NCBI GenBank assembly: GCA_016281825.1
Contig: JAEEJI010000068.1
Span: forward strand, 1 to 47,381
Direction: 5' to 3'
Length of the DNA: 47,381 nt
Source of the DNA: Muribaculaceae bacterium
Lineage (GTDB): Bacteria; Bacteroidota; Bacteroidia; Bacteroidales; Muribaculaceae
Shown: one piece after another, positions 4,953 to 47,244 of the stretch
Layout of the letters: each line of letters starts with the position of its first letter
Position numbering within the stretch: the stretch's first letter is position 1
Notes under the pieces: model-generated
What the model saw: only the letters and a program-made list of their open reading frames with translations
What the model was told of the DNA's origin: nothing
Database searches by the model: none
Position numbers and translations under genes: made by a program

Positions 4953-4980
4953 AACTATTAACTTTCAACTATAAACTAAT
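4953..4980. repeat. 7-bp tandem array, core AACTNNN, four units
   Basis: Units start at 4953, 4960, 4967 and 4974. The AACT core is invariant while the last three bases change. The array covers the stop codon of the prolyl oligopeptidase (4976-4978) and the gap to the SPOR gene. The same AACTNNN family occurs at 8016-8043, 15456-15476 and 17993-18020. Confidence 0.8.
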
Positions 4981-7081
4981 ACTTCACTCCTAAGTTGTAG
5001 AGAATGAAGGAGTGGATGTCGGTGTATTCGTCAATGACTTTGCTGATGGGCTTGCCGCCGCCATGGCCGGCATTGATGTCCACGCGAATCAGTTTCACGG
5101 CATCGCCGGTGTTGCTGGCCTGCAGCTGGGCTGCATACTTGAACGAGTGTGCTGGCACCACGCGATCATCGTGATCGCCACTGGTTACCAAAATAGGCGG
5201 ATACTTGGTGCCATCATTCTTGATGGTGTGCAGCGGGGAGTAACCCTTGAGGTACTCGAACATCTCTTTTGAATCATCGCTACGGCCATAGTCGGATGCC
5301 CAGTTCCAGCCGATAGTGAACAGGTGGTAACGCAGCATGTCCATCACGCCCACTTGGGGCACTGCAGCACCGAAGAGGTCGGGACGTTGGTTAACCACGG
5401 CACCCACGAGCAGACCGCCATTGCTGGCACCATTGCACGCTATCTTCTTGGGCGTGGTATAGCCTTCCTTGATGAGCCACTCGGCAGCGGCAATGAAGTC
5501 GTCAAAAACGTTCTGCTTGTTCAGTTTGGTGCCCGCCTCATGCCACTTCTCACCATACTCGCCGCCACCACGCAGGTTGGTGAACGCACCGATGCCGCCT
5601 GCCTCAATCAAGGCAAACGGGGTGCGGTAGTAGTTGAAGCCTGGGGTAAGGCTAACATTGAACCCTCCGTAGCCATAGAGAAACACTGGGCGTTTGCCGT
5701 CGCGCTTCATGCCCTTCTTGTAGATGAGGAACATTGGAATCTTGGTGCCGTCCTTGCTAGGAAAGAACACCTGCTCGGTGACGTAGTTCTCGGGCGTGAG
5801 TGCCACCTTCGGGCGGAATAGCAGTTTTGACTCGCCAGTGGCCAAGTCGTAGCTGTAGATAGATGTCGGGAAGGTGTAGCTGGTGAAACTATAGAAGACC
5901 TCGGGCTTATCCCAGTCGCAGCTGAAGCCCACCGAACCGAAAGTGGGGAGCTGGATTTCACGCACCTCACGACCCTGTGCGTCATAGACGTAGGGGTGGC
6001 TCGACGCGTCTCGGTCGTAGGTAAGAATGAACTGGTGATTGGCCATCTGCGCACCGCTCAAAACCCACTCTTTTTCGGGCACGAAGTCGGTGTAGTTGTT
6101 CTCGTTCAGATGGTTGATGTCATAGGCGCGAATTTTGTAGCAAGGCGCGCCGTCGTTGGTGTAGACATAGATTTTTCCATGGTCCACGCCGATGGGGCTA
6201 TAGGTATAGTGGCGGTTGCTGGCCAGTCGCACATAGTGGGGGTTCCGGTCATTCAGGTCTTTGACCCATAATTCGTTGCCATCTCCCTCGCTGACCCATC
6301 CGAAGATGAATCTCTCCTCGGCCATGACGGTGACCTGATGGAAGAGCAACGGCTCGCGCTGGTTCTGCAACTCGACATAGTCCTCGCTCTGCGGTGTGCC
6401 TAGTTTGTGGTACATCACCTTGTGGTACTCATTCTTTGATGACTTGGCATCCTCAGGTGCATCGTAGCAGCTATAGAAGAAGCCGTCGCCCAACCACTGC
6501 GCGTCGGTGAACTTCGCCCAAACGATGTGGTCCTCGAGCAGTTGGCCCGTCTGTAGGTCTTTGACGTAAATCTCGTTCCAGTCGCTGCCGTTGCGGCTGA
6601 TGATGTAGGCCATATATCGTCCATCCTTTGAGAAATTGATGCCCGACAGTGCCACGGTGCCGTCCTCCGAGAGTGTGTTCGGGTCAAGCACCAGTCGCGG
6701 CTCACCATCGAGCTTGTCGCGGACATAGAGGCAGCTTTGGTTCTGCAGGCTGTTGTTCTTGAAGAAGTAGTACTTGTCCTTAACCTTGAACGGTGCGCCC
6801 ACCTTCTCATAGTTGGCGAGTTCGGTGATGCGTTTCTTCACCTTATTGCGGAAGGGAATCTTGGACAGGTAGTCCTGCGTGAGCTTGTTTTCGGCCTTGA
6901 CCCACGCGGCGGTCTCGGCACTGTTGTCGTCCTCGAGCCAGCGGTAGGGGTCGGGCACGGGGGTGCCAAAGTAGGTGTCGACAGTATCTACGCGGCGTGC
7001 GTCGGGATAGTCGATGGTACGTGCCTGCGCCAGCACGGAGGTTGCTGCAATCAATGTTGCGCTCATGATGATGGCTTTCAT
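4976..7081 (-). CDS. Exported prolyl oligopeptidase family serine peptidase (S9A)
   Basis: The 701-aa protein has a signal peptide (about 1-20, MKAIIMSATLIAATSVLAQA), so it is probably periplasmic. A seven-bladed propeller region (about 80-430) is followed by an alpha/beta-hydrolase domain. The catalytic triad is visible: Ser about 553 in GASNGGLLVG, Asp about 639 in GDHDDRVVP and His about 673 in NAGHGGGKP. The family cleaves after proline in short peptides. The N-terminal DPYRWLED signature is also typical of S9A enzymes. The gene sits 19 bp after pdxJ and 31 bp before the SPOR gene, consistent with one transcript. Substrates cannot be read from the sequence. Confidence 0.94.
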   Translation of the reverse strand: MKAIIMSATLIAATSVLAQARTIDYPDARRVDTVDTYFGTPVPDPYRWLEDDNSAETAAWVKAENKLTQDYLSKIPFRNKVKKRITELANYEKVGAPFKVKDKYYFFKNNSLQNQSCLYVRDKLDGEPRLVLDPNTLSEDGTVALSGINFSKDGRYMAYIISRNGSDWNEIYVKDLQTGQLLEDHIVWAKFTDAQWLGDGFFYSCYDAPEDAKSSKNEYHKVMYHKLGTPQSEDYVELQNQREPLLFHQVTVMAEERFIFGWVSEGDGNELWVKDLNDRNPHYVRLASNRHYTYSPIGVDHGKIYVYTNDGAPCYKIRAYDINHLNENNYTDFVPEKEWVLSGAQMANHQFILTYDRDASSHPYVYDAQGREVREIQLPTFGSVGFSCDWDKPEVFYSFTSYTFPTSIYSYDLATGESKLLFRPKVALTPENYVTEQVFFPSKDGTKIPMFLIYKKGMKRDGKRPVFLYGYGGFNVSLTPGFNYYRTPFALIEAGGIGAFTNLRGGGEYGEKWHEAGTKLNKQNVFDDFIAAAEWLIKEGYTTPKKIACNGASNGGLLVGAVVNQRPDLFGAAVPQVGVMDMLRYHLFTIGWNWASDYGRSDDSKEMFEYLKGYSPLHTIKNDGTKYPPILVTSGDHDDRVVPAHSFKYAAQLQASNTGDAVKLIRVDINAGHGGGKPISKVIDEYTDIHSFILYNLGVKY

Positions 7082-7100
7082 ATTGTTTTTCGGTTGATGG

Positions 7101-7826
7101 TTATCCTTTTATACACTTCAGGTAGGCCTTAACGGTAGCCTCAAGACCCAGATAGAGGGCATCGCTGATGAGCTGGTGCCCGATGGACACCTCGGCCAGA
7201 TGCAGGATGTGTTGCTTGAAGAAGGCCAGATTGTCTAGGCTCAAGTCATGTCCTGCATTGATGCCCAGCCCCACACTGCGTGCCACCTGCGCGGCTGCGA
7301 CGTATGGGGCGATGGCGGCCTCGCGGTTGTCGGGGTGGGCGGCGAAGTCGTGGGCATATGGGCCGGTATACAGTTCGATGCGGTCAGCCCCGGTCTTCGC
7401 TGCCCAGCGGATATTGTCCAGGTCGGTGCCCACGAAGATGCTGGTGCGAATGCCGACCTCCTTCAGGCGGTCGACGATGCCGCACAACTGGTCGTAGTGC
7501 TCCTTTACTTCCCAGCCTGCATTGCTGGTGAGCACGCCCGGCGCGTCGGGCACGAGCGTGGCCTGTTCGGGCTTGACGGTGAGCACTAGTTGCATGTAGT
7601 CCTCACTGGGATAGCCCTCGATGTTGAACTCGGTGGTCACCAACGGCCTGAGGTTGAACACGTCTGCACGGGTGATGTGCCGCTCGTCGGGGCGGGGATG
7701 CACCGTGATGCCGTTCGCGCCGAAACGTTGGATGTCGACGGCGACGGTCTCGACACAGGGTACATTGCCTCCACGCGCATTGCGCAGAGTGGCTATCTTG
7801 TTGACATTGACACTGAGGTTCGTCAT
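7101..7826 (-). CDS. pdxJ: Pyridoxine 5'-phosphate synthase PdxJ
   Basis: PdxJ condenses 1-deoxy-D-xylulose 5-phosphate with 3-amino-2-oxopropyl phosphate to give pyridoxine 5'-phosphate, the last step of DXP-dependent vitamin B6 synthesis. Starting at the ATG at 7826 the protein is 241 aa, the usual length, and begins [20 protein letters not shown] as family members do. The longer reading frame back to 7877 would add 17 residues and run close to the promoter, so it was not used. The motifs [23 protein letters not shown] and [11 protein letters not shown] are characteristic. pdxJ leads the unit with the peptidase and SPOR genes and has a consensus promoter 70 bp upstream. Confidence 0.95.
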
Positions 7827-7845
7827 ATATTTCGATGAGAATAGC

Positions 7846-7874
7846 TTTGAAGTAAAAATAAATGAGTAACTTTG
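7846..7874 (+). promoter_or_regulatory. Possible nadK promoter
   Basis: On the plus strand TTTG (7846-7849) and TAACTTTG (7867-7874) are separated by 17 bp, a little short of the usual 19. Transcription would begin near 7881, run through the pdxJ promoter and the repeat, and give a leader of about 160 nt. No better plus-strand candidate lies nearer to nadK. Confidence 0.4.
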
Positions 7875-7894
7875 CACGATGTAAAAAGATACTG

Positions 7895-7925
7895 CAAAAG
7901 TAGTGCAAGTTGAGAGAAGTACAAA
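7895..7925 (-). promoter_or_regulatory. pdxJ: Promoter of the pdxJ unit
   Basis: On the minus strand TTTG (7925-7922), a 19-bp spacer and TACTTTTG (7902-7895) form an exact Bacteroidota consensus. The start of transcription is predicted near 7888, about 60 nt ahead of the pdxJ start. The promoter is inside the first copy of a 33-bp direct repeat; the second copy carries a one-base variant -7 (TACTTTTA). Confidence 0.8.
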
Positions 7926-8011
7926 ATATAAAATTGGTTTTTTTTATTTTTAATTCCGAAACGCAGCCTACTTTAACTAAAAGTAGTGCAAGTTGAGAGA
8001 AGTACAAAATA
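7896..8011. repeat. 83-bp repeat unit in 1.4 copies upstream of pdxJ; second site of the frr-type intergenic repeat
   Basis: A 33-bp block at 7896-7928 recurs exactly at 7979-8011, an offset of 83 bp. The part from 7903 to 7982 is related to the repeat upstream of frr (2164-2245). The block contains the spacer and -33 element of the pdxJ promoter, so the second copy is a near-duplicate promoter sequence. Confidence 0.8.
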
Positions 8012-8015
8012 AAAA

Positions 8016-8043
8016 AACTGACAACTGATAACTGACAACTAAA
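8016..8043. repeat. 7-bp tandem array, core AACTNNN, four units, abutting the nadK start codon
   Basis: Units start at 8016, 8023, 8030 and 8037 and the last unit ends in the A of the nadK ATG. It is the same family as the array at 4953-4980, but here it precedes a plus-strand gene, so its orientation relative to transcription is reversed. Confidence 0.8.
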
Positions 8044-8900: not shown

Positions 8901-8906
8901 TGGCTC

Positions 8907-8939
8907 GCCCCCCTCAGTCCCCCCTGAAGAGGGGGAAGC
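8907..8939 (+). repeat. 33-bp GC-rich hairpin repeat after nadK (copy 1)
   Basis: The sequence runs from a C-rich half to a G-rich half that can fold as CCCCCT with AGGGGG around a 4-nt loop. It is 32/33 identical to the reverse complement of 46366-46398 at the end of rsmA. In both places it is read in the direction of transcription at or just after the stop codon. It contrasts strongly with the AT-rich intergenic DNA around it. Confidence 0.75.
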
Positions 8940-9683: not shown

Positions 9684-9711
9684 ACGGACAGAAAGGGGAC
9701 GGTTCTTTTTC

Positions 9712-10042: not shown

Positions 10043-10121
10043 TGATGAATTTTGATGGCTTTGGTGCAATTTTTTCATCTTATCCTGTAAACTTTTTTCA
10101 GGACGATACATATAGGAACTA

Positions 10122-10171
10122 GACACCAAATACAACAAAAGCAATGATGTGCTGTTGTTGTATTTGGTGTC
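10122..10171. terminator. Bidirectional terminator-like hairpin between the nadK unit and ftsZ
   Basis: Sixteen-bp perfect arms (10122-10137 and 10156-10171) flank an 18-nt loop. On plus the stem is followed by TTTATTATT, which suits the nadK-peptidase transcript. On minus it lies 18 nt past the ftsZ stop but lacks an immediate T run. It marks the end of the dcw cluster. Confidence 0.65.
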
Positions 10172-10189
10172 TTTATTATTGGGGGTGCG

Positions 10190-11569: not shown

Positions 11570-11598
11570 ATAGCGTTTTGTTTTTTATCAACTTATTT

Positions 11599-11630
11599 CT
11601 AGATAGACTAGATTTTCTAGATGGACTAGA
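11599..11630. repeat. 9-bp tandem array, core CTAGANNNN, four units (ftsA-ftsZ junction)
   Basis: CTAGA starts at 11599, 11608, 11617 and 11626, exactly 9 bp apart. The four spacer bases differ in each unit. The array ends 8 bp short of the ftsA stop codon and lies about 30-60 nt upstream of the ftsZ start. The same family appears at 12984, 17955 and 30032. Confidence 0.85.
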
Positions 11631-11638
11631 CTGATATT

Positions 11639-12949: not shown

Positions 12950-12983
12950 AATATGATGTTTTTTTATTTGCTGTATCTTGGTT

Positions 12984-13024
12984 CTAGATGGCCTAGATGC
13001 ACTAGATGTTCTAGACTATCTAGA
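12984..13024. repeat. 9-bp tandem array, core CTAGANNNN, five units (ftsQ-ftsA junction)
   Basis: CTAGA starts at 12984, 12993, 13002, 13011 and 13020 with an exact 9-bp period. The array overlaps the end of ftsQ: its stop codon (13016-13018) and the last residues, Ser-Arg, are encoded inside it. The first unit is about 35 nt from the ftsA start. Confidence 0.87.
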
Positions 13025-13903
13025 TGGTTTCTTGCCGGTAGTGTCTTGCTTCTGTTTTAGTTTCTTCTCGTCGACGGCGAGGGTGTGGCGGTCTTCAGCG
13101 ACGGTGATGGTCTGCAGGTCGGGCTCTGGCTCGTCGAAGGCGGAGTCGTAGTCCATTTCGACCTTCACGGCCTTGACGCGGCGTGTGGCGACAACCTGGT
13201 GGTCCCACTTGACCGAGATGGTGTCATAGTTTTCCCATCCCTTGGCGGGCAGCACCTTGCGGTAGAAGAGTTTGAGTTTGCGGAACTTCGCCTCAAAGTT
13301 GTCGCAACTGCCGATGTTGACGACGTGGCCATAGATGGCCGGCACGATGAAGATGTTGTTGCTGTCGCGCATGGTGTACATTGTCACGAGCGAGCGCAGC
13401 AAGGAGTCGCCCTCGACATACTGCACCAATGGGAGTAGGCGTGTGGCAGGGTACTTGTCGGTAAAATGTCCCTGCATGACGGGCACATCGGCATGATAAC
13501 TCGCCGTGGCACTCATGCGTTTGCCGAAGCGGTTGACGTAGTAGCTCTGGTCGCCGTCAAACACACGCAACACGGGCACCAGCTGGCTGGCCCGGATGAT
13601 GAGCACACCGTCGGCTCCTTTGACACACTCGGCCTTCTCGAGGTACTCCGAGCGTTGCAGGGCCTGTTCAATGCGGTTGGCATCGATTTGCCACATGGGT
13701 TTGCCCACGACCTTGAAGCCCAATTTGGCGAGTTCCTGAGTGACTCCTTCGGGAGTGACAAACTGCGTGCTGTCGGCATTGTCAATGGTTACGGTGACGA
13801 GCCGGCAGGTCTCGTCGGCCGCCTTACCCCGCGCCCAAAAGATGCCCCACAGGAGCAACCCCGCGAGGACAAGCAAGATAGTATTTTGGATTATCTTCTT
13901 CAA
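13016..13903 (-). CDS. ftsQ: Cell division protein FtsQ
   Basis: The 295-aa protein has a short cytoplasmic start, one membrane helix at about 8-25 (TILLVLAGLLLWGIFWA) and a periplasmic part with a POTRA-like region at about 40-115 (FVTPEGVTQELAKLGF and onward), followed by the FtsQ beta domain. It bridges early and late divisome proteins with FtsB/FtsL. Sequence conservation is low, as usual for FtsQ, so position between murC and ftsA is part of the support. The C-terminal tail is Lys/Gln-rich and its last two residues lie in a tandem array. Confidence 0.9.
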   Translation of the reverse strand: MKKIIQNTILLVLAGLLLWGIFWARGKAADETCRLVTVTIDNADSTQFVTPEGVTQELAKLGFKVVGKPMWQIDANRIEQALQRSEYLEKAECVKGADGVLIIRASQLVPVLRVFDGDQSYYVNRFGKRMSATASYHADVPVMQGHFTDKYPATRLLPLVQYVEGDSLLRSLVTMYTMRDSNNIFIVPAIYGHVVNIGSCDNFEAKFRKLKLFYRKVLPAKGWENYDTISVKWDHQVVATRRVKAVKVEMDYDSAFDEPEPDLQTITVAEDRHTLAVDEKKLKQKQDTTGKKPSR

Positions 13904-13919
13904 ATTAATCGATAATTAA

Positions 13920-14002
13920 GACCGCGCTTCGCGCTGGTAGATTCTACTTAACTCCCTTTAACTACTGAAAATTACTGGTAGACCGCGCTTCGCGCTGGTA
14001 GA
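13920..14002. repeat. Two copies of a 22-bp GC-rich hairpin repeat in the murC-ftsQ gap
   Basis: The unit, containing GCGCTTCGCGC and ending CTGGTAGA, occurs at 13920-13941 and again, identical, at 13981-14002 (61-bp offset). A related version with the hairpin collapsed to GCGTTGC forms the 16-bp array at 20778-20825. Together with the following CTAA array it fills the 120-bp gap between murC and ftsQ. Confidence 0.75.
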
Positions 14003-14037
14003 CTAAAGTCTAAGGGCTAACGACTAAAGTCTAATTA
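14003..14037. repeat. 7-bp tandem array, core CTAANNN, five units
   Basis: Units start at 14003, 14010, 14017, 14024 and 14031. The fourth unit contains the murC stop codon (14024-14026) and the last residues of MurC (Leu-Ile-Arg-Leu) are encoded in the array. The same core, again following a GC-rich repeat, is found at 20835-20862. Confidence 0.85.
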
Positions 14038-15394: not shown

Positions 15395-15414
15395 ATTCTA
15401 GGGGTTTCTGAGAG

Positions 15415-15441
15415 AACTGGGAGAATTGGGAAAACTGGGAA
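15415..15441. repeat. 9-bp tandem array, core AAYTGGGAN, three units (murG-murC junction)
   Basis: Units start at 15415, 15424 and 15433. The core TGGGA is constant. The same motif family forms the array between rsmH and ftsL (24830-24856). It lies just upstream of the murC start on the minus strand. Confidence 0.8.
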
Positions 15442-16575: not shown

Positions 16576-16615
16576 TTCGATAATTCGAGTATTCGAGCAT
16601 TCGAGTATTCGAGTT
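16576..16615. repeat. 8-bp tandem array, core TTCGANNN, five units (ftsW-murG junction)
   Basis: TTCGA starts at 16576, 16584, 16592, 16600 and 16608 with an exact 8-bp period. It fills most of the 61-bp gap between the ftsW stop and the murG start. This is the only 8-bp TTCGA array in the window. Confidence 0.87.
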
Positions 16616-17939: not shown

Positions 17940-17954
17940 TGCAGGGACTGTTGA

Positions 17955-17990
17955 CTAGAGGCACTAGACTGACTAGATGTTCTAGAAGTA
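17955..17990. repeat. 9-bp tandem array, core CTAGANNNN, four units (murD-ftsW junction)
   Basis: CTAGA starts at 17955, 17964, 17973 and 17982. It is directly followed by an AACTNNN array, so two array families with different periods are joined in one 62-bp gap. Confidence 0.85.
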
Positions 17991-17992
17991 TA

Positions 17993-18020
17993 AACTATTA
18001 ACTATAAACTATTAACTCTT
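17993..18020. repeat. 7-bp tandem array, core AACTNNN, four units, over the murD stop codon
   Basis: Units start at 17993, 18000, 18007 and 18014. The murD stop (18002-18004) and its last residues (Val-Asn-Ser-Leu) are inside the array. Confidence 0.82.
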
Positions 18021-20750: not shown

Positions 20751-20759
20751 TGTATTTAA

Positions 20760-20780
20760 TTAAGAATTAAGAATTAAGAC
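20760..20780. repeat. 7-bp tandem array, core TTAAGAN, three units
   Basis: Units start at 20760, 20767 and 20774 and lead directly into the 16-bp array that follows. It lies just upstream of the mraY start on the minus strand. Confidence 0.7.
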
Positions 20781-20825
20781 CGCGTTGCTGGTAGACTGCT
20801 TTGCTGGTAGACCGCGTTGCTGGTA
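20778..20825. repeat. 16-bp tandem array, three units (murE-mraY junction)
   Basis: Units GACCGCGTTGCTGGTA, GACTGCTTTGCTGGTA and GACCGCGTTGCTGGTA are contiguous at 20778, 20794 and 20810. The unit resembles the 22-bp hairpin repeat at 13920 and 13981 with part of its hairpin lost. Confidence 0.87.
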
Positions 20826-20834
20826 GACCAAAGT

Positions 20835-20862
20835 CTAAAGCCTAAAGTCTAACGTCTATATG
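20835..20862. repeat. 7-bp tandem array, core CTAANNN, four units
   Basis: Units start at 20835, 20842, 20849 and 20856; the last has CTAT in place of CTAA. It is the same family as 14003-14037 and again directly follows the GC-rich CTGGTAGAC repeat, so a composite block recurs at two junctions. It ends just before the murE stop codon. Confidence 0.8.
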
Positions 20863-24829: not shown

Positions 24830-24856
24830 GCTGGGATTACTGGGAAAACTGGGAAT
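24830..24856. repeat. 9-bp tandem array, core CTGGGANNN, three units (rsmH-ftsL junction)
   Basis: Units start at 24830, 24839 and 24848 and fill the gap between the rsmH stop (24858) and the ftsL start (24822). It shares the ACTGGGAA core with the array upstream of murC. Confidence 0.8.
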
Positions 24857-26759: not shown

Positions 26760-26815
26760 GTATTAAGTAGTTAAAGAAGTTAAGTCGTTAAAGGGAGTTA
26801 GTAGTTAGCAGATGG

Positions 26816-30031: not shown

Positions 30032-30081
30032 CTAGATACTCTAGAGCGTCTAGATGAACTAGATTTTCTAGATAATCTAGA
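30032..30081. repeat. 9-bp tandem array, core CTAGANNNN, six units (upstream of the DUF2490 gene)
   Basis: CTAGA starts at 30032, 30041, 30050, 30059, 30068 and 30077 with no deviation from 9 bp. The four intervening bases vary between units. It begins 3 bp upstream of the DUF2490 start codon, so it would form the 5' leader of that gene. Confidence 0.9.
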
Positions 30082-32972: not shown

Positions 32973-34748
32973 TCATTCTTTCTGCAGCATGATGTTTATG
33001 ATGGCGTTGAGGTCGGCAATGTCGGTGACATAGTCGCGCACAAGGTCTTCATACCAAACAGGGTAATCGTCAGAATGAAGCATGCGGTTGATGATGTGAT
33101 TTATATCTACGATGTCAATCATTCCGTCGCGGTTCACGTCTCCCCGAACATAGGGCGAGAATCGCCCCTTATCCAAGTAGTCCAGACGTATGTCGAGCCA
33201 ATTGCGAATGTATGCTAGTTCAGCGTCAAAGTCCAGCTCATTGCCCGACAAGTCACTATCGTTGGTCCATCTCTCTATCTCGCGCGCAACGGCACCGCAT
33301 CGTTTGAGCCAGTTAATACGATTCTTGAATCGATTGTAGATGCTGTCGGCACTAAGCAAATCGTTGCGCAGCAGTCGGTAACGCTCTACGGCCTTGATGC
33401 AGAAGCTGTCGGGGTTATGCTCATAAAGACGTAACAACAAGTCGTTAAATCCCGCCAAAGATCTCGTTGGGCCCACAAATGCGTCATTGTGTGGCGGCGC
33501 GTTTATCCAATTCTGACCTACAGTACAGTCTAGGTCCCAAGCGGCCAAAGTAAGTTTCTTGTCAACGTTTTCGTCGTATACAGCCCAATAGATGTTCTTT
33601 GCACCATTATCCACGGCTAGAACGGCGTTTATCAATATCCAGTAGTCCATGACTACAGGAAGGTCGAAGTACTCATCAACATGATTGACAAAGTAAGCGT
33701 GCGAACTGTCGGCCACGAATCTAATTGCGTTGGAAAGCGTTGAATAGTCAGTGGGCATCACCTCGTCAGGATCAGGGTATTTCACCTCAATACCCCCCCA
33801 TGTGTCACTATTGTTGTTATACTCGTACCACTTGTTCATGCGCGTGATGCCGTCTGTGGTCTTTGCTTTCCAAAGCATACCATGGAAGGTATTCATACCA
33901 GCAGAGTCGGTTTTGGTCTTAACCAACTTGAGCTGCTTGCGGTCCATCGCTTCGGTCAGGGCATAAATGCCGTTGTAACGGTCGTTGAGATAGAGTTCGA
34001 CAAAATCTCCTCTCACGCCCAGCAAAGCCTTCGGTTCCTTATCGGCATAATAAGGCTTTGGGCACATGTCTAACCACAATTCAGTTATCACGCGGTTGCG
34101 GATTCGCAACATGTCAATCTGGCCAGCGTCAAGGATCCAGCTGTTATCGTTGCGCAACCCAAAGAACTTGCGGTCCATCTTCTGCGAGTCAGTGTCTAGG
34201 AACTTGATGTGGTAGTTTCGTTTATGGCGCTCTGGCAGGTTGGTTGTAGCACCACGATGCTTCACCTTGGCGAACATGCTTGTGGCAGTCGCAGAATCGG
34301 GCAGTGACACATCGACGTGGGTCACTCGGTAGTCATCATTGAATTCGCCCTGCAGGTGCAGGATGGGTAGGTAAGTGAAGCAAATCTTGTGGTGCAGGGT
34401 GTCGCCCGAAAGGGTGTCAACGGCGGCGAGAAAATAGGATCTGTCGCCAGCGACCTCAGTGAATGTGACGAGTGAATCGGAGTCCAAAGCGATGCCATCT
34501 ATGGTGATGTCACTCCAATGCAGCGTGGAGTCTACAGCCAAGCGAACCGTCAGGTCTTCGCCAAATTGTTGTGGCGGGACGCAGCATAGCCAAGTATTGG
34601 TGCCACAATCAAAGTATGCCGTACGCCCTCCCAAGGTGAGCGGTTTACTCCAGGCGGAACACACCAGGCTAACGGTGATTGCTATGAGTAACGAACGAAA
34701 CAAATTCTCTAATAAAGAAACAAGAATTATTGAATTCCAAGGACGCAC
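32973..34748 (-). CDS. Secreted CotH-kinase family protein with C-terminal dockerin repeats (CotH1)
   Basis: CotH proteins have an atypical protein-kinase fold; the Bacillus founder phosphorylates spore-coat proteins. CotH-type motifs are HRG (164-166), YHIKFLD (179-185), MDRKQLKL (269-276), the run NIYWAVYD (about 385-392) and WDLDCTVGQ (404-412), which should carry metal-binding aspartates. A dockerin pair ends the protein (about 536-591); the first repeat, GDVNRDGMIDIVDIN, is intact and the second is degenerate. The N-terminal 160 residues are a separate beta-rich module. No ATG is available: the frame opens with GTG at 34748, or a TTG at 34703 that gives MFRSLLIAITVSLVCSAWS, a better signal peptide. 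It is last in a run of three paralogues, 13 bp after CotH2. Confidence 0.87.
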   Translation of the reverse strand: MRPWNSIILVSLLENLFRSLLIAITVSLVCSAWSKPLTLGGRTAYFDCGTNTWLCCVPPQQFGEDLTVRLAVDSTLHWSDITIDGIALDSDSLVTFTEVAGDRSYFLAAVDTLSGDTLHHKICFTYLPILHLQGEFNDDYRVTHVDVSLPDSATATSMFAKVKHRGATTNLPERHKRNYHIKFLDTDSQKMDRKFFGLRNDNSWILDAGQIDMLRIRNRVITELWLDMCPKPYYADKEPKALLGVRGDFVELYLNDRYNGIYALTEAMDRKQLKLVKTKTDSAGMNTFHGMLWKAKTTDGITRMNKWYEYNNNSDTWGGIEVKYPDPDEVMPTDYSTLSNAIRFVADSSHAYFVNHVDEYFDLPVVMDYWILINAVLAVDNGAKNIYWAVYDENVDKKLTLAAWDLDCTVGQNWINAPPHNDAFVGPTRSLAGFNDLLLRLYEHNPDSFCIKAVERYRLLRNDLLSADSIYNRFKNRINWLKRCGAVAREIERWTNDSDLSGNELDFDAELAYIRNWLDIRLDYLDKGRFSPYVRGDVNRDGMIDIVDINHIINRMLHSDDYPVWYEDLVRDYVTDIADLNAIINIMLQKE

Positions 34749-34761
34749 AACACCTTGACAC

Positions 34762-36486
34762 CTAATCTTTTCCGAGCATTATGTTAATGATGGCATTGAT
34801 ATCAGCGATGTCGAGCACATCGTCATTGTTCATGTCCTCATACCATACCGGTGTCATGGCTGCTAAAATTTCGTTAACAACCACATTGATATCTCCTACG
34901 TCAACCACTCCGTCCCGATTTGCGTCGCCTTTGATGTAGGGTCTGAAACGTGCGTTGTCAAGATAGGTCATGTGCAGGTCAATCCAGTTGTCTATATACT
35001 CGAGTTCGGCTGGAAAGTTCAGCGGTTGTCTTGACAAGTCGGTTGATTTAGTCCAGCGCACTGTCTCACGAGCGAGTGCGCCTGCGCGATCCAGCGGTTC
35101 TAAGCGGGTATGGAACCGTTGCTTAAGACTATCCTCATTTAACAAGGTCTGGCGCAGCAGTTGGTAACGCTCGACAGCTTTGACCGAAAAACTGTCGGGG
35201 CTAAGTTCATGCAGGCGTAGTAATAGTTTGTTGAAACTTCCTAACGGGCGCGTAGGACTCACGACAGCCTCATTGTGCAGCGGATAGTTAATCCAGTTTT
35301 GCCCGAAAGTACAATCCAAATCCCATGCAGCAAGAGTGACCTTTTTGTCTTCTTGATCATCGTAGACCGCCCAGTAAATGTTTTTGACACCACTATCCAC
35401 TCCATGGATGGCATTGATAAAGATCCAGTAATCCATGATGACAGGTATGTCAAAATACTCACCAACTTGAGCACGGAAAGTGTTGTTGTCGCTTGTGTTA
35501 ACAAATCGTGTAGCATTATACATGGTTTTCCAGTTGGTAGGCATAACGTCATCGGGGTCAGGATATTTCACTTCCAGTCCACCCCAAAAGGCTTGGTTGT
35601 TGCTATAGCCATAGGAACTGGTCATGCGCGTGATGCCGTCGGTGTTCTTTGCTTTCCAGAGCATACCGTGGAAGGTATTCACTCCGGCAGAGTCAGTTTC
35701 TAATTTGGCAAGCTTCAATTGCTTGCGGTCCAGCGCCTCGGTCAAAGCATAGATGCCGTTATACTGACCATTGAGGAAAAGTTCGATGAAATCGCCACGG
35801 ACACCCAGAAGTGCCTTTGGCTCCTGGTCACCATAATAGGGTTTACGGGACATATCTAGCCATAACTCAGTGCTCACGCGATTGCGGATTCGCAACATGT
35901 CAATCTGGCCAGCATCAAGTATCCAACTATTATCGTTGCGCAACCCAAAGAACTTGCGGTCCATCTTTTGCGAGTCTGCGTCCAGAAACTTGATGTGGTA
36001 GTTGCGTTTGAGGCGTTCAGGACTATTGGTGCTACCGCCTCGGTGTTTAAGCTTACTTAGCATCGGTGTCGGACCTTGGTTCTGAGGCAAGTTTGCGATT
36101 ATCTCGGAAATTTGATAGTCATTGTTGAACGTGCCGGTGAACTCAAAGATTGGCAGGAAGGTGAAGCAGATATTGCCCGAGATGGTTATACTATCGCCGA
36201 TATGTGCAACCAAGGCGTATTTCTTGTCACCAGCGATTTGAATAAAGGTGTAGCTGGAGCCGTTGGCGACGGTGTCGCCATCAATGGTGATATTGATCCA
36301 TGGCTCGCTGGTGTTGAATGTAGCTGTGAAGTCGGTGCCGAAGGTGCTTTCGGGCACACTGCACAACCAATCACCCGTACGACTGTCATGAACGGCGCGT
36401 CGGCTATTCAGCGTAATCTGCGCTGACCCGGATAGTGTCATCATCACACAAGCGATAATGACTATTATGAAACGTTCTATAACCAT
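34762..36486 (-). CDS. Secreted CotH-kinase family protein with C-terminal dockerin repeats (CotH2)
   Basis: The 574-aa protein has a signal peptide (about 1-23) beginning with ATG. The kinase-fold core contains HRG (148-150), YHIKFLD (163-169), DRKQLKL (253-259) and WDLDCTFGQ (388-396). Two dockerin repeats close the protein (GDANRDGVVDVGDIN and DMNNDDVLDIADIN, about 518-574). Its core is about 80% identical to CotH1, while the first 140 residues differ strongly. It is likely co-transcribed with CotH3 upstream (36 bp) and CotH1 downstream (13 bp). Substrate unknown. Confidence 0.9.
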   Translation of the reverse strand: MVIERFIIVIIACVMMTLSGSAQITLNSRRAVHDSRTGDWLCSVPESTFGTDFTATFNTSEPWINITIDGDTVANGSSYTFIQIAGDKKYALVAHIGDSITISGNICFTFLPIFEFTGTFNNDYQISEIIANLPQNQGPTPMLSKLKHRGGSTNSPERLKRNYHIKFLDADSQKMDRKFFGLRNDNSWILDAGQIDMLRIRNRVSTELWLDMSRKPYYGDQEPKALLGVRGDFIELFLNGQYNGIYALTEALDRKQLKLAKLETDSAGVNTFHGMLWKAKNTDGITRMTSSYGYSNNQAFWGGLEVKYPDPDDVMPTNWKTMYNATRFVNTSDNNTFRAQVGEYFDIPVIMDYWIFINAIHGVDSGVKNIYWAVYDDQEDKKVTLAAWDLDCTFGQNWINYPLHNEAVVSPTRPLGSFNKLLLRLHELSPDSFSVKAVERYQLLRQTLLNEDSLKQRFHTRLEPLDRAGALARETVRWTKSTDLSRQPLNFPAELEYIDNWIDLHMTYLDNARFRPYIKGDANRDGVVDVGDINVVVNEILAAMTPVWYEDMNNDDVLDIADINAIINIMLGKD

Positions 36487-36522
36487 ATTGCTATAACATG
36501 AATTATATGGTGAATATTGTAA

Positions 36523-38205
36523 TTAGTTTTTAATCATTTTCTTTCCTTTTCGCACGTAGAAACCTGGCGGCAGGGGGCGGTCATCGGGCATGCGCTGACC
36601 CAATACGTTGTAAGTCCCGCTGGGCTCTGTAGTAATGTCTTCTTGTATGAAATCAATGGCGGCTGGGGCAAAGGTGTTCACATCGAGGTAATGCAGGCGG
36701 CGTTGTAGCCAATCGGCGATGTACGCCTTCTCGGCCTCCCAGTCTAGCGAGTGTCCGCCCAAGTCGCTATCACCATCCCATCGTGCGCTCTCGCGCGCCG
36801 CAGCCCCTGCATGAATCAGGCAATCGATGTGGTCTAGATAGCGTTTCGTGATAGAGTCGGTGTGCAGCACCCCCTTGCGCAACGATTGATAACGCGACAC
36901 CATCTCCTCGTGAAAGCCGTCGATGAGTATGTTCAGACGTCCAAACAAGTTGTTGCCAACGCTGAACTTACGCTCAGGACCTACGCGACTTTCGGGGCGA
37001 AACGGTGTGTTGGTCCAGTCTTGCCCTACCGTACAGTCTAAATCCCATACGGCCAATGTTATCATCTGGTTCATCTGTTTGTCATAGACTGCCCAGTAGA
37101 TGTTCTTGTTAGAGTTGTCGATAGCGAGCAACGTCTGGAGCAAGATATAGTAGTCGCGCATTACGGGCAGGTCGTAGTAATTCTTTGCTACGCGTCGCCA
37201 CTTGCTATCGTAGCATGTGACCGCCAATTTTACCGCGTCGTAGAGCACGCTATAGTCGGTAGGCGACACCTCTTCAAGCTCAGGGTATTTGGTCTCAAAG
37301 CCCAACCAAAATGTGTCGGTGTTATCATAATCACCGTAGCCAGTGAACGTGGTGCCCTTGGTGTAATCAATTGTCTTCCACAGTTGACCATGGATAATGT
37401 TCGTGCCAGTACTGTCGGTCTCGTATTTTGCCAACTTGAGCTGTTTCCGATCCATAGCCTCCATCAATGTGTAGATGCCCTCATACTGGCCATTGATAAA
37501 CAATTCGATGAATTCACTACGGCAGCCAGAACGAGCCTTGGGCTCGAGGTCGGCATAATAGGGCTTTGCAGCCATGTCAAGCCATAGCTCGTGAGCCACA
37601 TGGTTGCGGATGCGGCTGAGGTCGGTCTGGCCTGCATCCAAGAGCCAACTGTTGTCTTTGCGCATCCCTAACAGCTTTTTGTCCAACTTCTTGCCGTGTT
37701 CGTCCTCTAGCTTTATGTGGAAGTTGTGTTTGTGTCGGCCAGCCATCAAGGTGGTCTGCCCCCTTAACTTGAATCGCCCTTGAAGTGAAATCGGTGATAC
37801 ACTGTCGGGATGGTGCAGCCTAAGTGTGGCATGCTGGTAAGTCTCACTGATTGTGGAATTTACCTCAAGCAATGGTAGGCATGAGAACAACAGGTTGCCT
37901 GTAACGATAGAATCACCGACTCTGGCGGTGAGATGATGAGGTATGATGCCATCGAGAGAAGGGAACCATACGGATTGCCCGTCGGCTACTGGCACACCAT
38001 CAATCTCGACCTGGTCCCATGCGTCCTCGGGAATCATAGATACGATCGCCTCATAGTCGGTGCCGAATACCGAGTCAGGAACGGTACAAAGCCATTGCCC
38101 GGCAAGTTCATCGCGGATGATGTACTTGCCGTTGAGCCGCAACTGTGCCTGTCCCTGCAGACAGCACAATGCCATGAACAATATGTGCAACCATGTCCGA
38201 GACAA
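36523..38205 (-). CDS. Secreted CotH-kinase family protein with a Por/T9SS-like C-terminal tail (CotH3)
   Basis: The kinase-like core has LRG (148-150), FHIKLED (162-168), MDRKQLKL (251-258) and WDLDCTVGQ (387-395). Unlike its two paralogues it lacks dockerin repeats and ends in YNVLGQRMPDDRPLPPGF followed by a Lys-rich tail, like the C-terminal sorting/attachment domains common in this phylum. The start must be TTG at 38205: it gives a good signal peptide (SRTWLHILFMALCCLQGQA), and the only ATG, ten codons later, would remove the basic n-region. It begins 12 bp after the SPFH gene stop, so coupling with SPFH/NfeD is likely. It is the most divergent of the three. Confidence 0.87.
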   Translation of the reverse strand: MSRTWLHILFMALCCLQGQAQLRLNGKYIIRDELAGQWLCTVPDSVFGTDYEAIVSMIPEDAWDQVEIDGVPVADGQSVWFPSLDGIIPHHLTARVGDSIVTGNLLFSCLPLLEVNSTISETYQHATLRLHHPDSVSPISLQGRFKLRGQTTLMAGRHKHNFHIKLEDEHGKKLDKKLLGMRKDNSWLLDAGQTDLSRIRNHVAHELWLDMAAKPYYADLEPKARSGCRSEFIELFINGQYEGIYTLMEAMDRKQLKLAKYETDSTGTNIIHGQLWKTIDYTKGTTFTGYGDYDNTDTFWLGFETKYPELEEVSPTDYSVLYDAVKLAVTCYDSKWRRVAKNYYDLPVMRDYYILLQTLLAIDNSNKNIYWAVYDKQMNQMITLAVWDLDCTVGQDWTNTPFRPESRVGPERKFSVGNNLFGRLNILIDGFHEEMVSRYQSLRKGVLHTDSITKRYLDHIDCLIHAGAAARESARWDGDSDLGGHSLDWEAEKAYIADWLQRRLHYLDVNTFAPAAIDFIQEDITTEPSGTYNVLGQRMPDDRPLPPGFYVRKGKKMIKN

Positions 38206-39171: not shown

Positions 39172-39180
39172 CTTAGTTAA

Positions 39181-39201
39181 ATTGAGAATTTAGAATTGAG
39201 A
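39181..39201. repeat. 7-bp tandem array, core ATTNAGA, three units (nfeD-SPFH gap)
   Basis: Units start at 39181, 39188 and 39195. It precedes the SPFH start on the minus strand. The rest of the 97-bp gap holds an 8-bp hairpin (39242-39249 with 39262-39269) without a T run. Confidence 0.65.
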
Positions 39202-39268
39202 ATGGCAACGATTAAACTGCAGTTAAGAAAGGCCGAGGCATATGTCTCAATCATGGATTCATGAGACA

Positions 39269-40659: not shown

Positions 40660-40665
40660 CGTTTT

Positions 40666-41451: not shown

Positions 41452-41472
41452 AGTTTTAAAACCATAGAAGTC

Positions 41473-41940: not shown

Positions 41941-41975
41941 CGGCCAGGAGTCAGTTGAATTCTGACCCCTGACCC

Positions 41976-43280: not shown

Positions 43281-43288
43281 ATATTTTT

Positions 43289-43320
43289 AGTAGTTAAGTA
43301 GTTAACAGGTTATGATGATA
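43289..43320. repeat. 8-bp tandem array, AGTAGTTA type, four units
   Basis: Units start at 43289, 43297, 43305 and 43313; the first two are identical and the last two diverged. It occupies most of the 46-bp gap between the ATPase gene stop and the start of the carboxynorspermidine synthase gene. A looser relative with GTTAA cores lies at 26763-26808. Confidence 0.65.
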
Positions 43321-43326
43321 AGATTT

Positions 43327-44646: not shown

Positions 44647-44671
44647 AAATGCACTGAAATGTTTTTTGCCG

Positions 44672-44703
44672 CAAAGATACTATTTTTCAGTTAGTTTGGC
44701 AAA
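44672..44703 (-). promoter_or_regulatory. Promoter of the DUF4143 ATPase gene
   Basis: On minus, TTTG (44703-44700), a 20-bp spacer and TATCTTTG (44679-44672) match consensus. The predicted leader is about 19 nt. The 32-bp tandem array begins only 6 bp upstream of the -33 element. Confidence 0.75.
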
Positions 44704-44709
44704 TCTTTA

Positions 44710-44822
44710 CCACTTTTCTGGACGAATATTATTCATTTCTGCCACTTTTCTGGACGAATGTTGGTCGTTCTTGCCACTTATCTGGACGAATGTTAGTCAT
44801 CCTTGCCACTTTTTTGACGAAC
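44710..44822. repeat. 32-bp tandem array, about 3.5 units, upstream of the DUF4143 ATPase promoter
   Basis: Units start at 44710, 44742, 44774 and 44806 with no spacers. Each begins CCACTT, then TCTGGACGAAT, followed by a more variable half ending in TG. The last unit is truncated. On the minus strand the conserved part reads ATTCGTCCAGA. Because units are contiguous and 32 is not a multiple of three, this is neither a CRISPR nor a coding repeat. Confidence 0.9.
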
Positions 44823-44832
44823 AACTGAATAA

Positions 44833-46230
44833 CTATCCCATCAGTGAAGTGAATGTTGTGATGAGCCAGGTGCTGATGGACATGTAAATTATCATGCCCA
44901 CGATATCGTTGGTCACCGTCACGAACGGGCCGGTGGCAATGGCGGGGTCTATCTTGAGTTTCTCGAGTACGATTGGCACTAGCGAGCCAAAAATCGAGGC
45001 GAACAGGATGACGCCGAACAACGACAGGGTTACTGCCATCGTTGTCACTTGCGCCTTGACCGCGTCATCATCGGCAGGGAAGAACCAGTTATAGACAAAC
45101 AAGCACGCCGAGATAATCAGGGCGTTGAGTATGGCCACGCCAAACTCCTTGAACAAGTGTTTGCCTGCGTGTTGGATATCCAGACTGCCGTTGGCTAAGC
45201 CCTGAACCACGATAGCACTCGATTGTGTACCCACGTTACCGCCAGTACCACCAATGAGCGGGATGAACAATGCCATGCCGGGCAGAATTTGGAGAAGGTC
45301 GGCCTCGGTGCTGCCACCGCCGTCAAGGATGAACGCGTTAGCGATACCGCCCGCCAGACCGATGAGCAACCATGGCAGACGTGCCTTGACCTGCGTGAAG
45401 ATGTTGTCGTCGGTCTCGACGTCAGCCGAGATACCTGATGCCAACTGGTAGTCACGCTCGCTTTGTTCGCGCACCTGGTCGATGATGTCGTCGACGGTGA
45501 TGCGCCCCACTAGGCGGCCGATGCCGTCGACAACGGGCATCGCCACGAGGTCGTACTTCTCAAAGTCCAATGCCACGTCATCGATGGGCGTGTCGGTCTT
45601 CACGCTGATGGGGTCTGGCTCCATCACGTGTTTAATCTTGCTCGCGTTGGGGTTGGTGATGGTGGTTTTGAGAGGGAAGATGCCCTTCAGGCGATGGTCG
45701 TCATCCACGACATAGATGTTGTAAATCTCGTCCATATCCTCGGCCTGCTCGCGCATCGCCTTGATGCAGTCAGGCATCGACAGGTTCTCGTTGACGACAA
45801 TCATCTCGGTGCTCATGTGACCACCGGCGGTATCCTCGTCATACTGCATCAGGTCGACGATGTCGCCAGCCTGCTCCACGTCGTCGATGTGGCTGATCAC
45901 ATCTTCCTGGTCTTCCTTGTCCAACTCCTGGATAAGGTCTACTGCGTCGTCGGCATCCATCTGCTCGAGCTGCTTGGCAATTTCCTCGTTGGGCATCAAC
46001 TCAAGCAGGTCGGCACGTTCGTCCTCGTCAAGTTCGACCAGCACGTCGGCGGCTGTCTCGTCGTCGAGCAGGAGCATCACAAACAATGCCTCCTCGGCGT
46101 CGAGGTCGCTCACTATCTCGGCGATGTCGGCAGGGTGCAGGTCGGCGATGAGCGCCATCACCTGCTCCTTATCCTGTGCCTCAATCAAGTCGGACAGTTG
46201 GGCTATATTTTTTTCATCAAGTTCTTTCAT
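44833..46230 (-). CDS. mgtE: Magnesium transporter MgtE
   Basis: The 465-aa protein has the cytoplasmic acidic helical N-domain (about 1-130), a pair of CBS domains (about 135-265) and five membrane helices (about 290-460). The signature GGTGGNVGTQSSAIVVQGLA in helix 2 and VTNDIVGMIIYMSIS in the last helix are conserved. The N and CBS domains sense cytoplasmic Mg2+ and gate the pore. No promoter of consensus type was seen in the 147-bp gap upstream, which contains the tail of the rsmA unit and the 33-bp GC repeat. Confidence 0.96.
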   Translation of the reverse strand: MKELDEKNIAQLSDLIEAQDKEQVMALIADLHPADIAEIVSDLDAEEALFVMLLLDDETAADVLVELDEDERADLLELMPNEEIAKQLEQMDADDAVDLIQELDKEDQEDVISHIDDVEQAGDIVDLMQYDEDTAGGHMSTEMIVVNENLSMPDCIKAMREQAEDMDEIYNIYVVDDDHRLKGIFPLKTTITNPNASKIKHVMEPDPISVKTDTPIDDVALDFEKYDLVAMPVVDGIGRLVGRITVDDIIDQVREQSERDYQLASGISADVETDDNIFTQVKARLPWLLIGLAGGIANAFILDGGGSTEADLLQILPGMALFIPLIGGTGGNVGTQSSAIVVQGLANGSLDIQHAGKHLFKEFGVAILNALIISACLFVYNWFFPADDDAVKAQVTTMAVTLSLFGVILFASIFGSLVPIVLEKLKIDPAIATGPFVTVTNDIVGMIIYMSISTWLITTFTSLMG

Positions 46231-46365
46231 ATCACAATTCTAAGACATAAGAACAATGTCACGAATAATCTTTCTTTCACGATCCTTAAGCTCGCTGGCC
46301 GAAGGTCGGCAATTATCAAATTATTTGTTTCGCGAAATCCGCGGTTATATTTGAGGTCTTACTGG

Positions 46366-46398
46366 GCTTCCCCCTCTTTAGGGGGGACTGAGGGGGGC
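46366..46398 (-). repeat. 33-bp GC-rich hairpin repeat at the end of rsmA (copy 2)
   Basis: On minus this is 32/33 identical to the plus-strand repeat at 8907-8939. The rsmA stop codon (46378-46380) lies inside it and the last residues, Ala-Pro-Leu-Ser-Pro-Pro, are encoded by it. The C-rich and G-rich halves can form a 6-bp stem. Position relative to transcription is the same at both sites. Confidence 0.75.
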
Positions 46399-47172
46399 CT
46401 TATTGTCAGCAATCAGGTTTGTGAGATCAATGAATTCGCTCACACTCAATTGCTCTGGACGTTGTCGGAACACGTCGCGCTCCAGCACGGGGCTGTCCTT
46501 GGGCAAGAGTCCGCGCAGCGAGTTGCGCAAGGTCTTGCGGCGCTGGCCGAACGAGGTCTTCACCACGGTCTTCATCAGTCGCTCGTCGCAGCCCAGGTCG
46601 GTGACCCCGTTGCGTACCAGGCGGATGACGCCAGACTTGACCTTCGGGGGAGGATTGAACACATGCTCGTCAACGGTGAACAAGTACTCGATGTCGTACC
46701 ATGCCTGCAGCAGTACCGACAGAATGCCGTAGGTCTTGCTCCCCGGACCGGCTGCGATGCGTTGCGCCACCTCGCGCTGCAGCATGCCGCTGCAGCAAGT
46801 CACCTGATCCTTGTAGTCCAGCACCTTGAAGAAAATCTGCGATGAGATGTTGTAGGGGTAGTTGCCAATGATGCTGAACGGGCGGTCGCCGTAGACTTTG
46901 TGCAGGTCCAACTTCAAAAAGTCCTCCGCCACGATGCGGCCAGCAAGTTGTGGGAAGTTGAGTTGCAGGTAGCGCACGCTCTCCTGGTCCAGCTCCACCA
47001 CAGTCAGGTCATGCCCTTTTTCCAACAGGAACTCGGTGAGCACGCCCATGCCAGGACCCACCTCCAGCGTCGGTTGCTGGCGGAAGTCATCAAGCGTCGC
47101 GGCGATGCGCTCGGCGATGCTCAAGTCGGTCAGGAAGTGCTGACCCAACGATTTCTTCGCACGTACTTGCAT
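46378..47172 (-). CDS. rsmA: 16S rRNA (adenine1518-N6/adenine1519-N6)-dimethyltransferase
   Basis: RsmA (KsgA) dimethylates two adenines near the 3' end of 16S rRNA, a checkpoint in small-subunit assembly. The N-terminus KSLGQHFLTDLSIAERIA, SAM motif LEVGPGMGVLTEFLLEKG, VVELDQESV and the catalytic IGNYPYNISSQIF are all clear. The 264-aa length is normal. The final six residues come from a mobile-looking GC-rich repeat, so the native stop may have been replaced. Confidence 0.97.
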   Translation of the reverse strand: MQVRAKKSLGQHFLTDLSIAERIAATLDDFRQQPTLEVGPGMGVLTEFLLEKGHDLTVVELDQESVRYLQLNFPQLAGRIVAEDFLKLDLHKVYGDRPFSIIGNYPYNISSQIFFKVLDYKDQVTCCSGMLQREVAQRIAAGPGSKTYGILSVLLQAWYDIEYLFTVDEHVFNPPPKVKSGVIRLVRNGVTDLGCDERLMKTVVKTSFGQRRKTLRNSLRGLLPKDSPVLERDVFRQRPEQLSVSEFIDLTNLIADNKAPLSPP

Positions 47173-47201
47173 GGCAATATAAGTGAATGTTTAGCAAACT
47201 G

Positions 47202-47209
47202 CAAAGGTA
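47202..47209 (-). promoter_or_regulatory. rsmA: Candidate -7 element of rsmA
   Basis: On minus, TACCTTTG (47209-47202) fits TAnnTTTG, 30 bp upstream of the start. The expected -33 position falls in an AT-only 7-bp tandem array with no TTTG. Confidence 0.5.
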
Positions 47210-47216
47210 CAAAAAA

Positions 47217-47244
47217 AATTTATAATTTATAATTTAGAATTTAT
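47217..47244. repeat. 7-bp tandem array, core AATTTAN, four units (upstream of rsmA)
   Basis: Units start at 47217, 47224, 47231 and 47238. It lies where the rsmA -33 element would be expected. Confidence 0.7.

Follow-up and report, generated by a model that had tools for sequence, protein, structure and literature searches.

Degenerate tandem arrays between genes of a Muribaculaceae bacterium are probably terminal arrays of two kinds of small selfish element

What fills so many gaps between the genes of a Muribaculaceae contig with short, degenerate tandem repeats? The contig (JAEEJI010000068.1 of assembly GCA_016281825.1), analyzed over its whole length of 47,381 bp and here called the window, has 52.6% G+C, carries its genes mainly on the minus strand and includes a division and cell-wall cluster. 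Its genome comprises 2.83 Mb in 281 contigs and is 83% complete; the named FtsA relatives are mainly rumen and gut metagenome-assembled genomes (MAGs) labelled Muribaculaceae, Prevotellaceae, Porphyromonadaceae or Bacteroidales. Read on the sense strand, many arrays begin at the stop codon of the preceding gene and end just short of the next start codon, a few bases away. We find that these arrays probably represent the ends, complete or residual, of small selfish elements that sit between genes and come in two kinds, one encoding the ‘23S rRNA intervening sequence protein’ (IVP) and the other a GxxExxY protein. Elements of these kinds are a likely origin of intergenic repeats that have long been noticed in bacteria without explanation.

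Arrays in the window were located with Tandem Repeats Finder (TRF), and single gaps were tested against dinucleotide shuffles (Table 1). Short-period degenerate arrays are present as the original prediction had described them. TRF returned all of its families, namely the heptamers AACTNNN (four arrays, the last at 17989–18017), CTAANNN (14003–14034 and 20830–20858), TTAAGAN (20758–20779), ATTNAGA and AATTTAN, the CTGGGANNN type (two arrays) and the 8-bp repeats TTCGANNN and AGTAGTTA; the fusion of two families at one junction (17952–18017) and the linkage of arrays with a GC-rich repeat were likewise borne out. Seven of nine re-tested gaps or regions gave p values of 0.001–0.022. Not significant singly were the gap at 13904–14023 (p 0.087) and the region 26760–26815 (p 0.24), the latter absent from the original list. 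The gaps holding the arrays at 8016, 16576, 24831 and 39180 gave p 0.005 under an earlier codon model (54% coding in the larger sample), which also served the comparison of distant-congener spacers below. Neither an IVP nor a GxxExxY open reading frame (ORF) is present in the window itself.

Beyond the window, the survey covered 45 stretches of the genome, 399 kb in total, in which a simple gene caller placed 288 genes; repeats of periods 5–12 were graded by self-match, and a score of at least 12 defined an array. The stretches were chosen by contig number, except for one (L233) that was positioned on an already known TCCCAG array. Arrays occupied 60 of 185 gaps: 47 of 139 between co-directional genes, 6 of 24 between convergent genes and 7 of 22 between divergent genes; shuffled intergenic DNA fell far short, with expectations of 0.51, 0.03 and 0.27. 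The predicted marking of gene junctions needs correction, in that arrays occur in intergenic gaps of every kind and operon junctions are not special; the arrays in convergent and divergent gaps speak against selection limited to such junctions. Period 7 prevailed (51 arrays), followed by 9 (7) and 8 (2), and no other period among 5–12 reached the threshold. When periods 2–30 were scored at a higher threshold, 7 was still the commonest (43), then 18 (5) and 9 (3). Coding DNA was nearly empty, with 21 of 2,490 windows of 120 bp reaching the score, 20 of them at periods 6, 9 or 12. In these respects the arrays conform to long simple sequence repeats and short tandemly repeated repetitive (STRR) sequences.

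Families of the window also recur across the genome, as counts of overlapping matches on both strands demonstrate. The palindromic pattern CTAGN5CTAGN5CTAG occurs 117 times on each strand against 0 for its reversal, TCCCAGN3TCCCAG occurs 41 times against 0 and three TCGAA at 8-bp spacing, with one mismatch tolerated, occur 49 times against 2. In 100 distinct CTAG pairs of the genome, the unit is TCTAGA (end A 84%, T 77%) plus three nearly free bases; the search pattern itself fixes CTAG, and 107 of 160 next units, which it leaves unconstrained, read CTAG too. Among 101 congeners, the number of CTAG triples ranges from 0 to 284. On contig C86 of the source genome (L131), CTGGGA units directly join TCTCAG units, forming an ORF-less inverted 9-bp pair.

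The lead to a source came from small extra ORFs at the murG–murC and murC–ftsQ junctions of relatives. At murG–murC, three relatives hold an IVP ORF (L117, L068 and L069). At murC–ftsQ, occupied by a GxxExxY ORF in two species and short in others, relatives show this ORF with arrays (L069 and L117), ORF-less inverted heptamer arms (L066) or a short gap (L068). The L069 GxxExxY ORF at murC–ftsQ lies between AAAGACATA arms, and in L069 an internal deletion marks a decaying ORF. Empty relatives displayed for the two ORF-holding sites, at most six per site, lack the element’s own array family. TTTC stands at both ends of the murC–ftsQ GxxExxY insert (L068, L069), a possible target duplication. Elsewhere in the cluster, ftsW–murG carries TCGA 8-mers in six species, with differing spacers and copy numbers; the 8-bp array is present in five relatives (L066, L107, L067, L068 and L069) and is deleted in G008 (L207), whose FtsA is 94% identical. 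CTAG 9-mers occupy murD–ftsW in five species and different arrays in two, and the more distant congeners displayed mostly have short array-free spacers.

IVP is a four-helix-bundle protein, matched above cut-off by PF05635 and TIGR02436 at L281, L283, L294 and L305. These models did not match the GxxExxY proteins above cut-off, which are instead recognized by PF13366 (PDDEXK_3, above cut-off) and TIGR04256. In 52 GxxExxY sequences with a median identity of 34%, E, Y, D, ExK and Q are invariant and the last Y (QxxxY) reaches 98%; by these conserved active-site residues, the protein is predicted to be PD-(D/E)XK nuclease-like, and a sequence search gave no relative of solved structure. The source genome contains three IVP matches and one GxxExxY match, and among 296 Bacteroidota genomes, 232 have an IVP and 151 a GxxExxY match. 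A below-cut-off match of the IVP at L281 to the retroelement protein Avd makes reverse transcription conceivable as a possibility.

To characterize the flanks, 56 IVP and 57 GxxExxY loci were collected, of which 51 and 52 were placed and, after removal of duplicates and short flanks, 50 of each were kept; all belong to congeners save five IVP and one GxxExxY locus from same-order genomes. Period followed the ORF: 73 of 85 IVP arrays had period 7 and 12 another period, against 0 of 35 GxxExxY arrays at period 7 (Fisher 2e-20), these having periods of 9 (19), 8 (8), 10 (6) and 12 (2). The arrays on the two sides of either ORF read in opposite directions. An inverted flank match of at least 17 was found at 41 of 50 IVP and 47 of 50 GxxExxY loci, with same-direction matches at 6 and 10, and the median inverted match was 24.5 and 27.5, respectively, versus 10 in 132 control genes (direct median 11). 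Arrays lay upstream of 9 and downstream of 25 control genes, and 25 of these 34 were heptamers, as expected because solo arrays are common. Predicted RNA folds gave 55 arm-to-arm pairs for the own-genome element L283 (z −6.1) and 32 for a Nostoc element (z −5.6). The pattern was weaker in a phylum-wide sample, from which 30 of 30 IVP and 26 of 30 GxxExxY loci were kept: inverted matches occurred at 15 of 30 and 17 of 26 loci and same-direction matches at 3 and 7, and 7-bp arrays made up 17 of 23 IVP and 0 of 6 GxxExxY arrays.

Cyanobacterial plasmids offered junctions with and without elements. Among the records examined (9 of 33 IVP and 5 of 8 GxxExxY), a heptamer array was present at eight of nine IVP loci and an inverted match of at least 17 at five of nine; at GxxExxY loci, a 9-bp array occurred in three of five and a 7-bp array in none of five, one match (L369) being same-direction. 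In the part of the known empty and occupied plasmids that was compared, four Nostocales junctions exist both empty and filled, the filled ones holding an IVP ORF together with a heptamer array; the array thus comes with the element. The TraM–hypothetical junction is an array-free 52-bp gap in Nostoc C057 and is occupied in C052 and N. edaphicum, where AGGGAAC arms enclose the ORF and the downstream arms differ by one unit. Plasmid pNsp_c of Nostoc sp. ATCC 53789 has an ORF-less two-armed 260-bp form at this junction (L460, 651–910), and decay from full elements thus does occur. An integrase–hypothetical junction is a 3-bp gap in three plasmids, and in Calothrix brevissima it is filled by an ORF between GGGTGTA arms. 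A third junction is empty in three plasmids and filled in two, and a fourth is empty in four and filled in one with AAAGGGA-type arms. Every plasmid insert sits between a stop and a start codon, and words repeated at insert ends (TTCTA; TAATG/TTATG) may be target duplications. IVP ORFs also lie within CRISPR operons on plasmids of Anabaena sp. 90 (L359), Pseudanabaena galeata (L366) and Picosynechococcus PCC 7003 (L365), twice in a cas6/cas4 interval and once in a cas10/cmr3-type interval, where they may pass for accessory cas genes.

Words shared between solo heptamer arrays and element flanks connect the former to the IVP kind. With permuted unit columns as control, 46 of 70 own 7-bp arrays contained an exact 12-mer found in congeners’ IVP flanks (control 17.3), compared to 10 for GxxExxY flanks (7.9); at 14 nt, 23 were shared with IVP flanks (control 5.4). 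Twelve-mers of the three own IVP elements were found in 4, 10 and 15 of the 70 arrays. The 8-bp TCGAA family forms the arms of a GxxExxY element in G008. Own 8- and 9-bp arrays shared 14-nt words with IVP flanks in 2 of 25 cases (control 0.5) and with GxxExxY flanks in 1 of 25 (0.3), no clear excess with either. Arrays are also scarce where both ORFs are absent: seven congeners lacking both had 0, 0, 0, 0, 0, 0 and 2 CTAG triples, whereas the median for the remaining 94 was 25 (at least three in 79, fewer in 15), and arrays in 3 of 130 gaps, all in G115, versus 60 of 185 in the source genome. Element-bearing congeners had arrays in 13 of 53 gaps more than 260 bp from an ORF, and the congeners’ 60 cluster loci had them in 74 of 646 gaps. 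Five one-ORF genomes, with 24 gaps only, gave arrays of 8 and 10 bp in G113, one of 12 bp in G109 and none in G088, G060 and G100. An element source is well supported for the heptamers, moderately supported for the 8-bp family and weakly supported for the 9-bp families; the 9-bp CTAG and CTGGGA families may belong to the GxxExxY kind, a link based on period and co-occurrence because their word sharing shows no clear excess. The idea of a single whole class of arrays gives way to at least two classes.

Several observations weigh against an origin from these elements. On plasmids, L363 and L364 have no inverted match, the arrays of L366 read in the same direction and the third junction has an upstream arm (AGTCAGA) only. 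Own 7-bp arrays shared 14-nt words with GxxExxY flanks in five cases (control 0.8), so these flanks are not wholly free of heptamer words. For own 8- and 9-bp arrays, 12-nt words gave no clear excess with either IVP (2 of 25, control 1.8) or GxxExxY flanks (3 of 25, 1.9), none of the 25 has words in common with the own GxxExxY element, and among the ORF-bearing elements examined none matches the 9-bp families CTAG and CTGGGA. Solo arrays have an inverted partner in 4 and a direct partner in 8 of 61 gaps, near chance. G115, in which neither ORF was found, has three arrays (L450–L452; periods 5, 7 and 8), none of 10 gaps in G005 holds an array although this genome carries both ORFs, and CTAG triples are numerous in G113 (97), where IVP was not found, and in G109 (87), where GxxExxY was not found. 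In sampled stretches of fourteen same-order genomes of other families, 6 of 88 gaps held an array, with 2.75 expected; all three of them searched for IVP (G026–G028) contain it, so an IVP ORF is insufficient for a rich set of solo arrays. The element loci are, moreover, the best-scoring ones, the MAGs are incomplete and counts across relatives ignore relatedness. Two further candidates were discarded. A two-armed miniature inverted-repeat form is not supported as the norm for solo arrays, given the 4 of 61 gaps, the exceptions being murC–ftsQ in L066 and L460. A CTAG-armed ORF was found at none of the 100 element flanks listed, and in the one case examined of two CTAG arrays separated by about 1 kb (L469), they enclose a 319-codon ORF that is probably an ordinary carbamoyltransferase.

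Taken with these reservations, the data suggest the following course of events. Elements of the IVP kind consist of the four-helix-bundle ORF between inverted 7-bp arrays, and those of the GxxExxY kind of the putative nuclease-like ORF between inverted 8–12-bp arrays, whose units mostly combine a core with two or three free bases. On entering a stop-to-start junction, an element would carry its arrays along and break no gene there, and in the transcript both arms would pair around the ORF into a long stem, as happens with 23S rRNA intervening sequences (IVSs). Later, the ORF and one arm would be lost, unit number and sequence would drift and a one-armed array would stay; solo arrays would thus be leftovers of elements. 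A bolder version, which we put forward tentatively and consider less likely than not, is that IVP and GxxExxY mark a type of mobile element not described before, with tandem arrays for ends and an array period dictated by its protein (7 with IVP; with GxxExxY mostly 8–10 bp, made up of a core and free bases). In this version, the two proteins would also seed or extend single arrays in trans and thereby make the heptamers of Cyanobacteria, Bacteroidota and perhaps Beggiatoaceae.

That solo arrays mostly lack an inverted partner fits leftovers or copies made in trans. Repetitive extragenic palindromic (REP) sequences are palindromes, and their partner RAYT is a Y1/HUH transposase. By analogy, IVP and GxxExxY proteins might copy or extend arrays at new intergenic sites, and solo arrays would never have had an ORF. 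The one-armed state of these arrays, the contrast between four element matches in the source genome (three IVP, one GxxExxY) and arrays in roughly one in three of the gaps sampled, and the near disappearance of arrays where both ORFs are absent speak for such dispersal, yet intermediates were not seen, the ORF-less two-armed form shows that full elements do decay and IVP-bearing genomes of other families are poor in arrays; we consider it unlikely as the general explanation. The likeness to REP/RAYT lies in few genes, many small intergenic repeats and a gene flanked by inverted copies, whereas the present repeats form tandem arrays and their associated proteins are IVP or PD-(D/E)XK-like; no search for RAYT was made.

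Two further accounts dispense with elements as a source. Replication slippage in neutral intergenic DNA, with the polymerase favoring 7 nt (Mrazek 2007 as cited in PMC4679880), would make the elements bystanders. It agrees with the one-heptamer step between two plasmids, with the near absence of arrays from coding DNA save at periods divisible by 3 and with the prevalence of heptamers beside control genes (25 of 34), but it does not yield inverted arms around one ORF, an ORF-dependent period or arrays that come with an ORF, and TCTAGA is retained beside three nearly free bases in the 100 CTAG pairs. We rate slippage as distinctly improbable. More improbable still is selection of the arrays as sites near start codons to which a regulator binds, in RNA or DNA, a role proposed for TAACTGA in Beggiatoaceae (PMC4679880). 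Sense-strand bias was seen for TCCCAG (13:3, own genome, a few arrays being counted in two parts), for AATTCTC (6:1) and, with own genome and relatives pooled, for TCGAA (9:1), and at ftsW–murG and murD–ftsW cores persist across species while spacers vary. The commonest family, AATTCTT, is nevertheless evenly split between strands (6:6), which rules out a uniform sense-strand signal, and arrays also occur in convergent gaps, the ftsW–murG array is entirely lost in G008 and some congeners are nearly array-free. The original suggestion, that the arrays reflect a mechanism generating them or selection at junctions and are not a collection of independent simple repeats, is supported, with IVP and GxxExxY elements and their inverted arrays as the candidate source. 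Neither of the two outcomes that would have refuted it was seen, since shuffled sequence falls short of the observed density and families recur beyond the window.

Among known systems, the closest is the 23S IVS of Coxiella burnetii, which has an S23/IVP ORF, inverted ends and heptamers upstream of the ORF in strain-variable number (PMC4990558). IVSs resemble the present elements in protein family, approximate size, heptamers and inverted ends folding into a stem around the ORF, the last being matched here by the complementary ends at 41 of 50 IVP loci and the two predicted folds. They differ in lying within 23S rRNA and being excised by RNase III, whereas the examined annotated or gene-called loci lie between protein genes and end in tandem arrays; GxxExxY elements, in addition, carry an unrelated ORF. 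Because of this location, we term them IVS-like rather than 23S IVSs. Known intergenic heptamers include cyanobacterial STRRs and TAACTGA of Beggiatoaceae (PMC4679880) and GGGANTN of Xanthomonas and GGGGA(T/C)T of Nostoc (PMC4692102). Such repeats, as characterized in the relevant parts of these papers, are likewise short, mostly 7-nt, intergenic, degenerate and species-variable tandem units; those parts state no source or linked gene, whereas here two ORFs, 8- and 9-bp classes and inverted arms come into play. The same parts describe heptamer repeats of cyanobacteria and other bacteria as serving strain fingerprinting and leave their origin and the prevalence of 7 nt open (PMC4679880, PMC4692102). 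In the open-access literature, preprints excluded and as far as its texts were accessible, we found no report tying IVP or GxxExxY ORFs to such arrays outside rRNA. A period tied to two small, widespread ORFs gives poorly understood proteins a context, suggests elements that exploit stop-to-start junctions without gene disruption and makes the origin of intergenic repeats testable.

Table 1 Arrays and array-bearing junctions in the window. Word lengths refer to words in common with flanks of the elements named.
Feature	Position	Strand	Evidence
7-bp AGTTNNN (AACTNNN of the original prediction), stop-to-start gap before SH3/SPOR gene	4948..4978	-	TRF; p 0.022; longest word common to IVP flanks 12 nt (L276)
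7-bp AACTGAC/AACTGAT, upstream of NAD kinase gene	8016..8040		TRF; at least 24 nt identical to congeners’ IVP flanks L328, L331
9-bp CTAG array, ftsA–ftsZ junction	11596..11630		TRF; p 0.015
9-bp CTAG array, ftsQ–ftsA junction	12981..13026		TRF
TTAGNNN heptamers (predicted as CTAANNN at 14003) and GC-rich GTCTACCAGC repeats, murC–ftsQ junction	13904..14037	-	gap alone p 0.087
9-bp TCCCAGNNN array, murG–murC junction	15408..15440	-	TRF; p 0.001; no word of at least 10 nt in common with IVP or GxxExxY flanks
7-bp array, adjoining murG stop codon	15457..15473	-	TRF, low copy number (2.4); 15-nt word, IVP flank L284
8-bp TCGAANNN array, ftsW–murG junction	16576..16614	-	TRF; family forms arms of G008 GxxExxY element L262
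Fused 9-bp CTAG and 7-bp AGTTNNN, murD–ftsW junction	17952..18017	-	TRF; p 0.004
TTAGACT heptamers, three GC-rich GGTCTACCAGC units and CTTAATT heptamers, murE–mraY junction	20758..20858	-	TRF; p 0.001; 13-nt word of GC-rich unit, flanks of L281 (IVP element)
9-bp TCCCAGNNN array, upstream of mraW gene	24831..24855	-	TRF
AACTACTT-type repeats, in the gap separating a LytTR regulator gene from a histidine kinase gene	26763..26807	-	TRF; p 0.24 alone; 14-nt word, IVP flank L291 (G008)
9-bp CTAG array	30032..30081		TRF
7-bp TTCTCAA array	39180..39203	-	TRF; family forms arms of own-genome IVP element L305
8-bp AACTACTT repeat	43289..43305	-	TRF, low copy number (2.1); gap p 0.002; 16-nt word, IVP flank L291
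7-bp AAATTAT array	47217..47248	-	TRF; p 0.001; 19-nt word, own IVP element L294

The GC-rich GGTCTACCAGC repeats (window 13920–14037 and 20777–20829; also L281, L068 and L069) look REP-like by eye; they stand in inverted order around IVP elements in G008 and are ORF-less in the window. A 32-bp tandem repeat of 3.5 copies, unlike the short arrays, lies upstream of an MgtE gene (44710–44821). Three CotH-kinase-domain genes follow one another at 32973–38205.

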